Shown here: positions 35,490 to 61,667 of the stretch, in pieces | Layout: the number at the start of each line of letters is the position of its first letter | Position numbering within the stretch: the stretch's first letter is position 1 | Origin: Desulfotomaculum nigrificans DSM 574 | GTDB lineage: Bacteria > Bacillota > Desulfotomaculia > Desulfotomaculales > Desulfotomaculaceae | Direction: 5' to 3' | Length of the DNA: 64,000 nt | NCBI RefSeq assembly: GCF_000189755.2 | Contig: NZ_KI912183.1 | Coordinates: 374,257 to 438,256, forward strand | Translations under genes and position numbers: made by a program | The notes under the pieces: model-generated | Told to the model about the DNA's origin: nothing | The model's database searches: none | The model's input: only the letters and a program-made list of their open reading frames with translations

Positions 35490-35585
35490 ATTGTGAAAAT
35501 AACATTCAACAGGCAGTTTTTTCAGAAAATAAAAAGGATTTTACTTCTATTTATAGAATAATATTATAAAATAATGTTTATTTTT

Positions 35586-35692
35586 AGCTCCCGAGCCCTG
35601 GAACCTGAAATGGTAGATTATGGGTTCCCTGGCCGATAGGGTTTGTCTGGGAAACGGACGAACCTTCCGTGCGGAAAGGTGGTAGGGTTTAT
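35586..35692 (+). promoter_or_regulatory. Moco/Tuco-type riboswitch, first of a tandem pair
   Basis: The segment has CTCCCGAGCCC, later GGCCGATAGGGTT, a GGGAAAC tetraloop stem and CGGAAAGGTGG. The copy at 35749 repeats the same order with different stems, which argues for a conserved aptamer. The pattern matches my memory of the Moco RNA motif and it lies downstream of modABC; the class should be confirmed with a covariance model. Confidence 0.6.
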
Positions 35693-35706
35693 TAATTATA
35701 TCCTTT

Positions 35707-35731: not shown

Positions 35732-35748
35732 ATTTTTAATCATGTCGT

Positions 35749-35845
35749 TCTCCGAGCCATTAAAACCTAAGGTGATGAAACTATGGTGTTTTGGCCGTTA
35801 GGGTTAGCCGGGAAACTGGTTAGCCTCCCTGTTGGAAAGGAGAGC
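35749..35845 (+). promoter_or_regulatory. Moco/Tuco-type riboswitch, second of a tandem pair
   Basis: It reads TCTCCGAGCCA, GGCCGTTAGGGTTAGCC, GGGAAACTGG and CCTCCC...GGAAAGGAGAG, the same architecture as the copy 160 bases upstream. Its terminator lies at 35865. The gene behind it is a wreck, so this control element is an orphan. Confidence 0.6.
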
Positions 35846-35864
35846 ATTTTTCCCACCTGTCTTG

Positions 35865-57255: not shown

Positions 57256-57467
57256 AATAATCACTCCTTCAATTATTACCCTGGTTCTGCACGGGTAATA
57301 TTCCTAACCCTATTAATTCTACATAGGTGGAATATTTCCTCTGCAATGGATAATTTTAAGTGGATTGTAATATTTCTTTTATTATGATATGACTGGAGGT
57401 CTAAAGAAGATAAAGTTATATCTAAAAATAAAAATATTACGGAAATATAACAAAGTTATGAAAACAA

Positions 57468-57495
57468 TTGACTGATAATTCAAAAATAGTATAAT
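57468..57495 (+). promoter_or_regulatory. SigA-type promoter of the hydrogenase maturation unit
   Basis: TTGACT (57468-57473), 16 bases, TATAAT (57490-57495). It starts a leader of about 160 bases before the first gene. The stretch 57256-57467 holds nothing else I can name. Confidence 0.7.
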
Positions 57496-57504
57496 TAGGA
57501 TAAC

Positions 57505-57616
57505 ACCTAACAAATCGGGTGCGCCTGGTTTGGAGGGTGGTCAATGTAAGGATATTCCCTGAGGAGTAGGGCAAAGGCCTTGGACCAAGGGGTATACCAT
57601 TAATGTGGTGTACACT
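57505..57616 (+). promoter_or_regulatory. Structured leader RNA before the hyd genes, class not assigned
   Basis: The leader has several conserved-looking segments: GGAGGGTGGTCAATGTAAGG, CCTGAGGAGTAGGGC, and a hairpin CCTTGG/CCAAGG near 57578-57590. GGCAAAGGC (57570-57578) is perfectly complementary to GCCTTTGCC (57627-57635) in the terminator loop, and CGCCTGG (57522-57528) to CCAGGTG (57634-57640). So the leader can form two competing or interlocked folds around a terminator, as in a riboswitch. Confidence 0.5.
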
Positions 57617-57659
57617 ACCCGTCTATGCCTTTGCCAGGTGAGACGGGTTTGTTGTTTTT
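57617..57659 (+). terminator. Terminator in the hyd leader
   Basis: ACCCGTCT (57617-57624) pairs with AGACGGGT (57641-57648), followed by TTGTTGTTTTT. It lies between promoter and first gene, so it must be read through or opened for expression. Confidence 0.85.
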
Positions 57660-57663
57660 GGAG

Positions 57664-57930
57664 GTGGTTATAATACAGCGCCGCATTGGTGTAGTAGGCA
57701 TTGTCATTGAGGATCGAGCCAAGGCCCCGGGAATCAACAACATACTAAGTAATTATTCGGAAATCATCATCGGTCGCATGGGTATACCACACCGGGAAAG
57801 GGAACTTTCCGTTATATCCCTCATTGTGGAAGGCACCAATGAGGAAATAGGGGCCATGACCGGCAAGTTGGGTAATATCAAAGGTGTGCAGGTGAAATCA
57901 GCTCTCAGTACTAAGTATTGGGAGACTTAA
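57664..57930 (+). CDS. TM1266-like regulator of the [FeFe]-hydrogenase system
   Basis: A small ferredoxin-fold/ACT-like protein that begins RRIGVVGIVIEDR and contains NNILSNYSEIIIGRMGIPH and a final VKSALS. This family (iron-only hydrogenase system regulator) occurs with hydE, hydF and hydG. The start is uncertain: GTG 57664 lies within the ribosome site GGAGGTGG (57660-57667), and the best-spaced codon is the ATA at 57673; the ATG at 57625 is inside the terminator loop. Confidence 0.85.
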   Translation: MVIIQRRIGVVGIVIEDRAKAPGINNILSNYSEIIIGRMGIPHRERELSVISLIVEGTNEEIGAMTGKLGNIKGVQVKSALSTKYWET

Positions 57931-58019: not shown

Positions 58020-59111
58020 ATGCCCTTGGGGTTGGAGTTTAGGACAGCTCTGGCTAAGGCCAGGGCAGGTGAAGAATTAACCAAGGAAGACATCATTGAC
58101 CTGCTTAAGGCGGCTCCGGGAGAGGAGGCAAGTCAATTATTTGCCCTGGCCGACCAGGTTAGACAGCAAAACATGGGTGATGAGGTACACCTGCGGGGTA
58201 TTATTGAATTCTCTAATTACTGCTGTAACGATTGTTACTATTGTGGACTGCGACGCAGCAACAAAGACATTAAAAGATACCGCATCCCCCGGGAGGAAGT
58301 TCTGGCAGCAGCCAAGCATGCCGCTGAACTGGGCTACGGCACCATAGTCTTACAGTCCGGGGAAGACCTTTACTATAGTGGTGCGGAGCTGGCCGAGATG
58401 GTTGCCCAGATTAAACGAATTGGTAATTTTGCCGTTACAGTTTGTGTAGGTGAACGAAGCTTGGCAGATTACCAACTAATGAGAGAAGCCGGTGCCGATC
58501 GTTACCTGTTAAAGCATGAAACCGCTGACCCGCAATTGTTTTCTCAGTTGCGTCCCGGCACCACCTTGCAAGAACGGTTGGAGAGATTAAAGTGGTTGCG
58601 GGAACTTGGTTACCAGGTGGGTTCCGGCAATATGGTGGGGCTGCCGGGTCAAACCATGGCCACACTGGCCGATGACATTTTGCTGCTAAAGGAATTAGAT
58701 GTGGAGATGGCCGGTATTGGGCCCTTTATACCACATCACCAGACTCCCTTAAGGGACTGTCCACCCGGGGATTTAAACCTTACCCTTAAGGTACTGGCAG
58801 TGGCCAGGTTGGTGCTGCCGCAAACCCATTTGCCGGCCACCACCGCGGTGGGAACATTACATCCCAGGGGGCGCCAAATGGCCCTAGGCTGTGGGGCCAA
58901 TGTGATTATGCCTAATTTGTCGCCAGCCAGTTATCGAAAGATGTATGCCATCTACCCGGAGAAGGCTGGCAGTAAAGAGGATCCTGATGAGTCTCATCAC
59001 AAAATTGTTTCGTTGATTAAGGAAGCGGGACGTGCCGTTAGCTCAGGCAGGGGTGACAGTCCTAAAGAAAAATTTAAATACTTTCCGGGGGAGAGTACCG
59101 GAGAAAGGTAG
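58020..59111 (+). CDS. hydE: [FeFe]-hydrogenase maturation radical SAM protein HydE
   Basis: The 363-residue enzyme has the cluster motif C68-x3-C72-x2-C75 in NYCCNDCYYCGLR, then RYRIPREEVL and LQSGED. It helps build the dithiolate ligand of the H-cluster. AAGGGG precedes the ATG. It is followed at ten bases by hydG; hydF is not in this window. Confidence 0.94.
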   Translation: MPLGLEFRTALAKARAGEELTKEDIIDLLKAAPGEEASQLFALADQVRQQNMGDEVHLRGIIEFSNYCCNDCYYCGLRRSNKDIKRYRIPREEVLAAAKHAAELGYGTIVLQSGEDLYYSGAELAEMVAQIKRIGNFAVTVCVGERSLADYQLMREAGADRYLLKHETADPQLFSQLRPGTTLQERLERLKWLRELGYQVGSGNMVGLPGQTMATLADDILLLKELDVEMAGIGPFIPHHQTPLRDCPPGDLNLTLKVLAVARLVLPQTHLPATTAVGTLHPRGRQMALGCGANVIMPNLSPASYRKMYAIYPEKAGSKEDPDESHHKIVSLIKEAGRAVSSGRGDSPKEKFKYFPGESTGER

Positions 59112-59121
59112 GGTGATTGGA

Positions 59122-60588
59122 ATGGCAGTGAACAAAGCAGTTTATAACAACCAGTGGGAACCGGCTGATTTTATTAATGAAGAGGAAATCAACCGGTTGT
59201 TGGAGGAAGGTAAGCAGGCAACACCGGCCAGAGTCCGGGAGATCATTGAGAAGGCTCGCTTGGCCAAAGGATTAACCCCGGAGGAAGTGGCTATTTTACT
59301 GCAAAATGATGATCCGGAATTACTGCAGCTAATGTACCAAGCGGCCCGGGAGATTAAACTGAAAATCTATGGTAAACGGCTGGTGTTATTTGCTCCCCTG
59401 TATATCAGCGACCACTGTGTAAACAACTGTGTTTATTGTGGTTATCGCCGGGATAATAAGTTTAACCGGCGTAAGCTGAGCCAGCAAGAAATAGAGGAAG
59501 AAGTGAAGATTTTAGAGTCTTTAGGTCATAAAAGACTGGCTCTGGAAGCTGGGGAACATCCCGGGGAATGTCCCATTGATTATGTTCTGGAATGTCTGAA
59601 GACCATTTATAGTATTAAATTTGAGAACGGCAGTATCCGTCGTTGTAACGTTAATATTGCTGCCACCACCATTGAGGATTACAAAAAACTCAAAGAGGCC
59701 GGGATCGGTACCTACATCCTGTTCCAGGAGACCTACCACCGGGAGACCTATAAAAAAATGCACCCAAGCGGTCCTAAGTCAGATTATGACTGGCATACCA
59801 CTGCTCACGACCGGGCCATGCTGGCGGGTATTGATGACGTAGGTTTCGGTCCTTTGTTTGGACTGTATGACTATAAATTTGAGGTTATGGGCTTGATGAT
59901 GCACGTTCGTCATATGGAGGAACGATTTGGTGTAGGTCCTCACACCATTTCCGTACCAAGGCTGCGCCCGGCCCTGGGAGTAAACCATGATAGCTTTCCT
60001 TATTTGGTTAACGATGATCAATTTTTGAAATTAGTGGCCATCATCCGGCTGGCAGTTCCTTATACCGGTATGATTATATCTACCCGGGAAAGTCCCGAAT
60101 TTCGTGATATATTAATTAATCACGGTATTTCCCAAATTTCCGCCGGGTCTTGCACCGGGGTAGGCGGTTATAAGAGGGAAGTAGAACGGAAGCGCTGTTC
60201 CGCCAGCGGGGAGACTGGCTGCGGTTGCGGTGAGGAGGATACCCCACAATTTGCTGTCAGTGACCATCGCACCCCTGATGAAGTTTTACGCCATATTTGT
60301 GAGTCCGGCTGGCTGCCCAGCTACTGCACCGCTTGTTATCGCAAGGGACGGACCGGTGACCGGTTCATGTCTCTGGCTAAAACAGGTGAGATTCAAAATG
60401 TTTGCCAGCCCAATGCCATTTTAACCTTTAAAGAGTACTTGATGGATTATGCCTCCCCGGAAACCAGGAAAGTTGGGGAAGAGGCCATCCAAAAACATTT
60501 AGCCGAAATTAAAAACCCTGAAATCCGTAGAATTACCGAGCAAAGGCTTAAGCAAATTGAAGCAGGTGTCAGAGACTTATATTTCTAA
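59122..60588 (+). CDS. hydG: [FeFe]-hydrogenase maturation radical SAM tyrosine lyase HydG
   Basis: The 488-residue enzyme has the SAM cluster C99-x3-C103-x2-C106 (CVNNCVYC) and the C-terminal second cluster motif C402-x2-C405-x22-C428, which separates HydG from ThiH. It splits tyrosine to provide CO and cyanide ligands. ATG 59122 follows AGGGTGAT; the longer frame overlaps hydE. Confidence 0.96.
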   Translation: MAVNKAVYNNQWEPADFINEEEINRLLEEGKQATPARVREIIEKARLAKGLTPEEVAILLQNDDPELLQLMYQAAREIKLKIYGKRLVLFAPLYISDHCVNNCVYCGYRRDNKFNRRKLSQQEIEEEVKILESLGHKRLALEAGEHPGECPIDYVLECLKTIYSIKFENGSIRRCNVNIAATTIEDYKKLKEAGIGTYILFQETYHRETYKKMHPSGPKSDYDWHTTAHDRAMLAGIDDVGFGPLFGLYDYKFEVMGLMMHVRHMEERFGVGPHTISVPRLRPALGVNHDSFPYLVNDDQFLKLVAIIRLAVPYTGMIISTRESPEFRDILINHGISQISAGSCTGVGGYKREVERKRCSASGETGCGCGEEDTPQFAVSDHRTPDEVLRHICESGWLPSYCTACYRKGRTGDRFMSLAKTGEIQNVCQPNAILTFKEYLMDYASPETRKVGEEAIQKHLAEIKNPEIRRITEQRLKQIEAGVRDLYF

Positions 60589-61484: not shown

Positions 61485-61530
61485 AAGTTTGTGGCAACTT
61501 ATTAATAAATAACAGTTGCCTGGAAAATAA

Positions 61531-61648
61531 TTGCTTAATCCCGTTAATCGGGAGCGGAGGAACCATTATTTGGGGTGAATCCTATGCCTTGGCACAGGTA
61601 GGGTTTTAAACCTTTCGACCCGAACCCGACAGCTAACTTCGTAAGCAA
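61531..61648 (+). promoter_or_regulatory. c-di-AMP riboswitch (ydaO-yuaA class)
   Basis: The segment carries the ydaO core: GCTTAATC, GGGAGCGGAGGAACC, TTGGGGTGAATCC, GGTAGGG, CGACCCGAACCCGACAGC and TAACTTCGTAAGC. The closing helix pairs TTGCTTA (61531-61537) with TAAGCAA (61642-61648). The ribosome site of the next gene starts seven bases later, and no separate T-tract terminator is visible, so control may act on translation. The class normally switches genes off when c-di-AMP is high. Confidence 0.93.
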
Positions 61649-61667
61649 TGGAAAGGGAGGATGGTTT

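Follow-up and report, generated by a model that had tools for sequence, protein, structure and literature searches.

Several described systems resemble in part the leader RNA found upstream of TM1266, hydE and hydG in Desulfotomaculum nigrificans DSM 574. The Moco/Wco riboswitch (RF01055) is likewise a cis-acting RNA serving the biosynthesis genes of a metal cofactor, but its architecture is different and it gives no match to the leader element. The NiCo (czcD) riboswitch (RF02683) is built on repeated quasi-symmetric motifs with G/A-rich internal loops. Quasi-symmetric motifs are found in the leader as well, and a metal-linked function is conceivable for it, but no Rfam match supports a relationship. 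Indeed, no family of Rfam release 15 (NiCo, T-box, SAM, Moco and ydaO included) matches positions 57380-57720 at E<=10, or the element of 20 relatives at E<=1, in agreement with the earlier note, in which no known aptamer had been recognised. The autoregulatory leaders of the ribosomal-protein type offer a third parallel, since the first gene of the operon, TM1266, may encode the protein ligand of the RNA; unlike in these leaders, copies of the RNA also precede hydG, hydE and aspA units located far from TM1266. Finally, TM1266 shares the fold of the C-terminal metal-sensing domain of NikR (Z 12-13) but is devoid of the ribbon-helix-helix DNA-binding domain, and its proposed target is an RNA.

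We know of no RNA-binding role for TM1266 and of no signal-responsive control of H-cluster synthesis. A search of the open-access literature returned no such control and nothing on a hydE/hydG riboswitch, on the function of TM1266 or on a cis-acting RNA associated with HydG. The leader is a real cis-regulatory RNA that belongs to a widespread class standing in front of maturation genes of the H-cluster, the iron cofactor of [FeFe]-hydrogenase. This class is new by its structure and regulon, and works like known attenuators and riboswitches. The window, that is the whole stretch of 64,000 nucleotides analysed, also holds two Moco/Wco riboswitches in tandem (35577-35697 and 35738-35858) and a c-di-AMP riboswitch (61522-61662) directly 5' of a glutamate 2,3-aminomutase gene.

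A conserved two-hairpin leader

The leader covers about 155 nt between its promoter and TM1266-hydE-hydG (Table 1), with a transcription start predicted at about 57502 from the position of the promoter. The promoter anticipated in the earlier note was recovered as the joint best of the region, and the three proteins read there behind the leader, TM1266, HydE and HydG, all score above curated cut-offs. Two initiation codons can be considered for TM1266. An ATA codon (57673-57675), common to the window and one relative (L003), aligns with the ATG or TTG of the orthologues and is located 8 nt 3' of the GGAGG; a GTG at 57664 lacks a good Shine-Dalgarno sequence.

Table 1. Features of the leader and of the genes behind it (positions in the window)
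Feature	Position	Strand	Basis or remark
Sigma-A type promoter TTGACT-16-TATAAT	57468-57495	+	Joint best of region, 11/12; also present in Desulforamulus relatives
Conserved two-hairpin RNA, class-defining element, 90 nt	57503-57592	+	Covariance model 87.6 bits; covariation
Hairpin 1	57505-57538	+	Strands 57506-57519 (CCTAACAAATCGGG) / 57524-57537 (CCTGGTTTGGAGGG)
Hairpin 2	57557-57592	+	Strands 57558-57571 (CCTGAGGAGTAGGG) / 57578-57591 (CCTTGGACCAAGGG)
Antiterminator 5' strand GGCAAAGGC	57570-57578	+	Complementarity, folding
Spacer hairpin GUAUACCA/UGGUGUAC	57592-57613	+	Folding
Intrinsic terminator ACCCGTCT/AGACGGGT and T-rich tail	57617-57659	+	Fold, complementarity, scan
Antiterminator 3' strand GCCTTTGCC, within terminator loop	57627-57635	+	Complementarity, folding
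Shine-Dalgarno GGAGG of TM1266	57660-57664	+	Sequence
TM1266 family protein (NikR-C/ACT-like fold, no DNA-binding domain)	57673-57930	+	Start codon uncertain
hydE	58020-59111	+	Above curated cut-off
hydG open frame	59032-60588	+	True start inside frame; above curated cut-off

None of 200 shuffled sequences folds as well as the leader (z -4.6), which bears out the structured RNA proposed for it. Its extent, previously put at about 110 bases, had to be corrected, the conserved part being the 90-nt element. This element is made of four strands, two per hairpin, which follow the pattern CCUG...GGG. Depending on the strand, a length of 14 nt is found in 27-32 of the 34 sequences, and both hairpins show quasi-two-fold symmetry. 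Hairpin 1 of the window comprises a U-G pair (57508/57535) and an AA/GA internal loop, while hairpin 2 is closed at its base by the helix CCCU 57557-57560 / GGGG 57589-57592. The U-G pair is nearly invariant (32/34) and adjoins a G-A/A-R internal loop at the hairpin base, with conservation of the tandem G-A positions. An A-rich linker and conserved unpaired G and A positions complete this architecture, whose four equal strands in two quasi-symmetric hairpins would suit an oligomeric protein.

Orthologues of TM1266 were collected by family and by protein search, and their leaders were compared. The same leader is present in all Desulforamulus, the genome of the window being itself of Desulforamulus type, and recognisable versions occur at distant loci. 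In a first alignment of 14 sequences, produced with plain MAFFT and with the structure deduced from conserved complementarity, both sides change in 15 of the 23 pairs, a value that none of 500 shuffles reached; sliding the partner by one column brought the covariation score well below half. The count rose to 18 of 23 in an enlarged alignment and to 19 of 23 in a third one, made with one exception of sequences outside the training set of the R2 model described below (0/500 shuffles in each case); as these two alignments were fitted to the model, they are biased in favour of the structure. The covariation test across homologous leaders called for in the earlier note was thus passed, and the leader contains, like riboswitches, a conserved aptamer-like structured domain.

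Terminator, antiterminator and leader reading frames

The strong terminator noticed behind the leader was confirmed, its arms (57617-57624 and 57641-57648) being perfectly complementary. At least 73 of 81 copies have an intrinsic terminator within 150 nt behind hairpin 2, and the scan missed at least one more (L090). The pairing already pointed out between GGCAAAGGC and GCCTTTGCC is a perfect complementarity of 9 nt and constitutes a conserved antiterminator in Desulforamulus. A second match proposed at the same time, between CGCCTGG (57522-57528) and CCAGGTG (57634-57640), does exist, with one G-U pair, but is absent from the leaders of the relatives and was rejected as a functional pairing.

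Growing transcripts of the window were folded by minimum free energy (MFE). Hairpin 2 is intact in transcripts up to 57625. Once the terminator loop has been made, in the transcript ending at 57636, the predicted fold is the antiterminator (-61.6), composed of GGCAAAGGC/GCCUUUGCC, UGGAC/GUCUA and GGG/CCC. It extends the spacer hairpin by GGG 57589-57591 / CCC 57618-57620, and disrupts hairpin 2 and the terminator simultaneously. At full length, the best fold combines hairpin 2 and the terminator (-67.6). The competing pairings suspected from the beginning are therefore those of terminator and antiterminator, which are mutually exclusive in these folds.

Ten Desulforamulus leaders retain a complementarity of hairpin 2 to the terminator loop (-12.7 to -20.5 kcal/mol versus shuffled means of -8 to -14), which was not found in the eleventh leader tested (L080). 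In further relatives (L042, L048, L049 and L033), the GGGG strand can form antiterminators of about 7-10 bp. Of 15 Desulforamulus-type leaders, 11 have no hairpin 2 in their truncated fold. Outside this type, hairpin 2 is missing from the truncated fold in 66% of the cases versus 52% of the swapped controls, and one antiterminator universal to all lineages, weakly supported by such a difference, was not retained. The exclusion of part of the aptamer by the platform fold, a property of riboswitches, is clear in Desulforamulus-type leaders and weak elsewhere.

A Shine-Dalgarno sequence with an ATG stands directly behind hairpin 2 in 22 of 80 copies (shuffles 4.1 +- 1.8, maximum 11), and the short leader ORFs often stop at the terminator (peptides MRVNF, MSTRL and MKVTV, for example, each followed by a stop). 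These frames would be expected if attenuation were coupled to translation, a ribosome on the short ORF holding the terminator open and the RNA only tuning its access. However, the peptides share neither codon nor sequence, which argues against the sensing of an amino acid; a convincing leader ORF is lacking in most copies, including that of the window; and the coupling would give no reason for hairpin 1 to be conserved. Translational coupling of this kind is consequently considered very unlikely. Amino-acid attenuation was rejected, the conserved regulatory codons typical of trp-type attenuators being absent from the unrelated peptides of these 22 copies. In Riflebacteria and, by eye, in WOR-3, the CCGAGGAG strand is the Shine-Dalgarno sequence of the gene itself. 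At three loci (L083, L084 and L091) the leader ORF continues in frame into hydE or into a permease gene, and the terminator-like sequence is translated; the fused leader peptide of L083 and L084 reads MxLxKA...LTNQARPFL.

Because the strands of hairpin 2 serve the antiterminator, the Shine-Dalgarno sequence of a leader ORF or that of the gene itself, the folded RNA should be the OFF state. Judging from the anatomy, where it is readable, this probably holds for all three kinds of platform. With the two-hairpin domain folded, the terminator would form and TM1266-hydE-hydG would be off. A hairpin 2 that is not stabilised would release its strands for pairing with the loop and the 5' arm of the terminator, and RNA polymerase would read through the resulting antiterminator. 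In other lineages, where the region overlaps a Shine-Dalgarno sequence, be it that of the gene or that of a short leader ORF, folding would also mean OFF. The attenuator core by itself, considered apart from the direction of the switch and from any part for TM1266, is very probably correct.

Distribution and regulon

A covariance model, R1, was used for a blind search of 299 Bacillota genomes in which no gene information was provided, and a second model, R2, was built from 34 sequences. At E<=1e-3, the R2 search returned 43 places in 39 of the 299 genomes, distributed among 23 families. As many as 41 of these blind places are directly 5' of H-cluster maturation genes (TM1266, hydE, hydG, aspA-hydF), to which the leader is dedicated, as had been proposed. 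One of the other two precedes the N-terminus of an ABC permease, the equivalent of which in a different genome (L091) opens a permease...TM1266-hydE cluster, and the other an orphan gene (L080). The most frequent gene behind the RNA is TM1266, which comes first at 38 of the 61 loci classified; hydG, hydE or aspA-hydF are found otherwise. As for riboswitches, the regulon is coherent (TM1266, hydE, hydF, hydG and aspA), and it corresponds to the [2Fe]-subcluster pathway because the ammonia-lyase AspA supplies in vitro the nitrogen of the dithiomethylamine bridge (PMC11736057). This gene association, the covariation and the terminators all contradict an ordinary, non-regulatory 5' UTR in which a hairpin arose by chance, and such a reading can practically be dismissed. 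A dedicated RNA class present in at least 23 Bacillota families makes the control of H-cluster synthesis directly testable, and marks aspA, possibly also a NitT/TauT-like transporter, as members of the H-cluster regulon.

At four loci (L091, L084, L104 and L107), a NitT/TauT-like ABC permease or an NMT1-type binding protein is encoded in the hyd cluster behind the RNA, and the compound moved by this transporter may be linked to the signal. In D. aeronauticus, a second RNA copy is located 5' of the gene of an orphan 185-aa protein without Pfam match (L132 10235-10792, G001:C16), the role of which could help to name the signal. Beyond Bacillota, the class may be represented in WOR-3 and Riflebacteria by single loci: those of Riflebacteria (L038/L039 and L037) are weak matches (E 0.0017-0.065), and that of WOR-3 (L043), which obtains no R2 score, resembles a two-module member by eye. 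Candidates L095-L098, L106, L110, L115 and L117 (E above about 0.01), as well as L066, were discarded for having no hyd gene nearby.

TM1266 and the nature of the signal

Each of the 48 genomes checked that carry the RNA (39 + 9) also encodes TM1266, even where an RNA copy stands far from it (G184, G048, G169, G187 and G280). Of the genomes that encode HydG, 133 also have TM1266, and 38 of these carry the RNA; none of the 24 without TM1266 does (Fisher, 0.0012 by genome and 0.004 by family, relatedness being taken into account only approximately). One family comprises five RNA genomes, all with TM1266, and two genomes with HydG but no TM1266, both without RNA; five others with HydG and TM1266 are also without it. 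TM1266, whose structure has been solved (2NZC, four chains), has no DNA-binding part. Together with the NikR-C fold, the presence in 48/48 genomes and the contrast of 38/133 with 0/24 make a protein acting on the RNA a serious candidate beside a direct ligand. As in protein-binding leaders, this cognate protein is always present (48/48) and is often encoded by the first gene (38/61 loci). The data would be explained by an action of TM1266 on the RNA no less well than by a metabolite, even if their co-occurrence may come only from the first place of TM1266 in the same operon. No RNA copy was detectable in 114 of 153 TM1266 genomes, which implies either further roles for TM1266 or divergence of the RNA.

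The reading that we prefer is an attenuator of a new class, OFF when folded, whose fold is stabilised by TM1266. As a sensor domain of NikR-C type without DNA-binding part, TM1266 would most likely hold the fold, perhaps together with a ligand reporting the status of the H-cluster, in a feedback of the product type. Taken as a whole, with TM1266 proposed as the sensor, this statement is given close to, but short of, an even chance. An RNA that is OFF when folded fits product or protein feedback better than the substrates evoked in the earlier note (iron, SAM and tyrosine); from iron or tyrosine, as substrates, one would rather expect an activation of the genes. The RNA is also a candidate molecular target for TM1266, a 'putative regulator' family without DNA-binding domain.

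The same structural and genomic evidence would be accounted for by an orphan riboswitch, the two-hairpin domain itself binding an indicator of H-cluster assembly, either a small molecule or a metal complex (such as an Fe-CO-CN precursor, the [2Fe] unit or a downstream signal), and turning the maturation genes off. The A-rich linker and the conservation of G and A residues outside the pairs point in this direction, as do the riboswitches of three known classes that occupy four sites of the window and indicate wide use of this mode by the host. A self-sufficient riboswitch, however, needs no TM1266, which every RNA-bearing genome checked contains, and direct binding is regarded as a possibility of somewhat less than even chance. 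More specifically, direct sensing of an organometallic intermediate or product of the H-cluster (Fe-CO-CN species), with feedback on hydE, hydF, hydG and aspA, seems unlikely; if true, it would be the first RNA sensor of such a compound.

Each Desulforamulus genome contains one or two further TM1266 paralogues (G000:C1:1167965-1168189; L011-L027), with no RNA in front. At one locus (L062 2039-2104), a TwoAYGGAY RNA (RF01731, above gathering score) is located between TM1266 and aspA, within the hyd operon.
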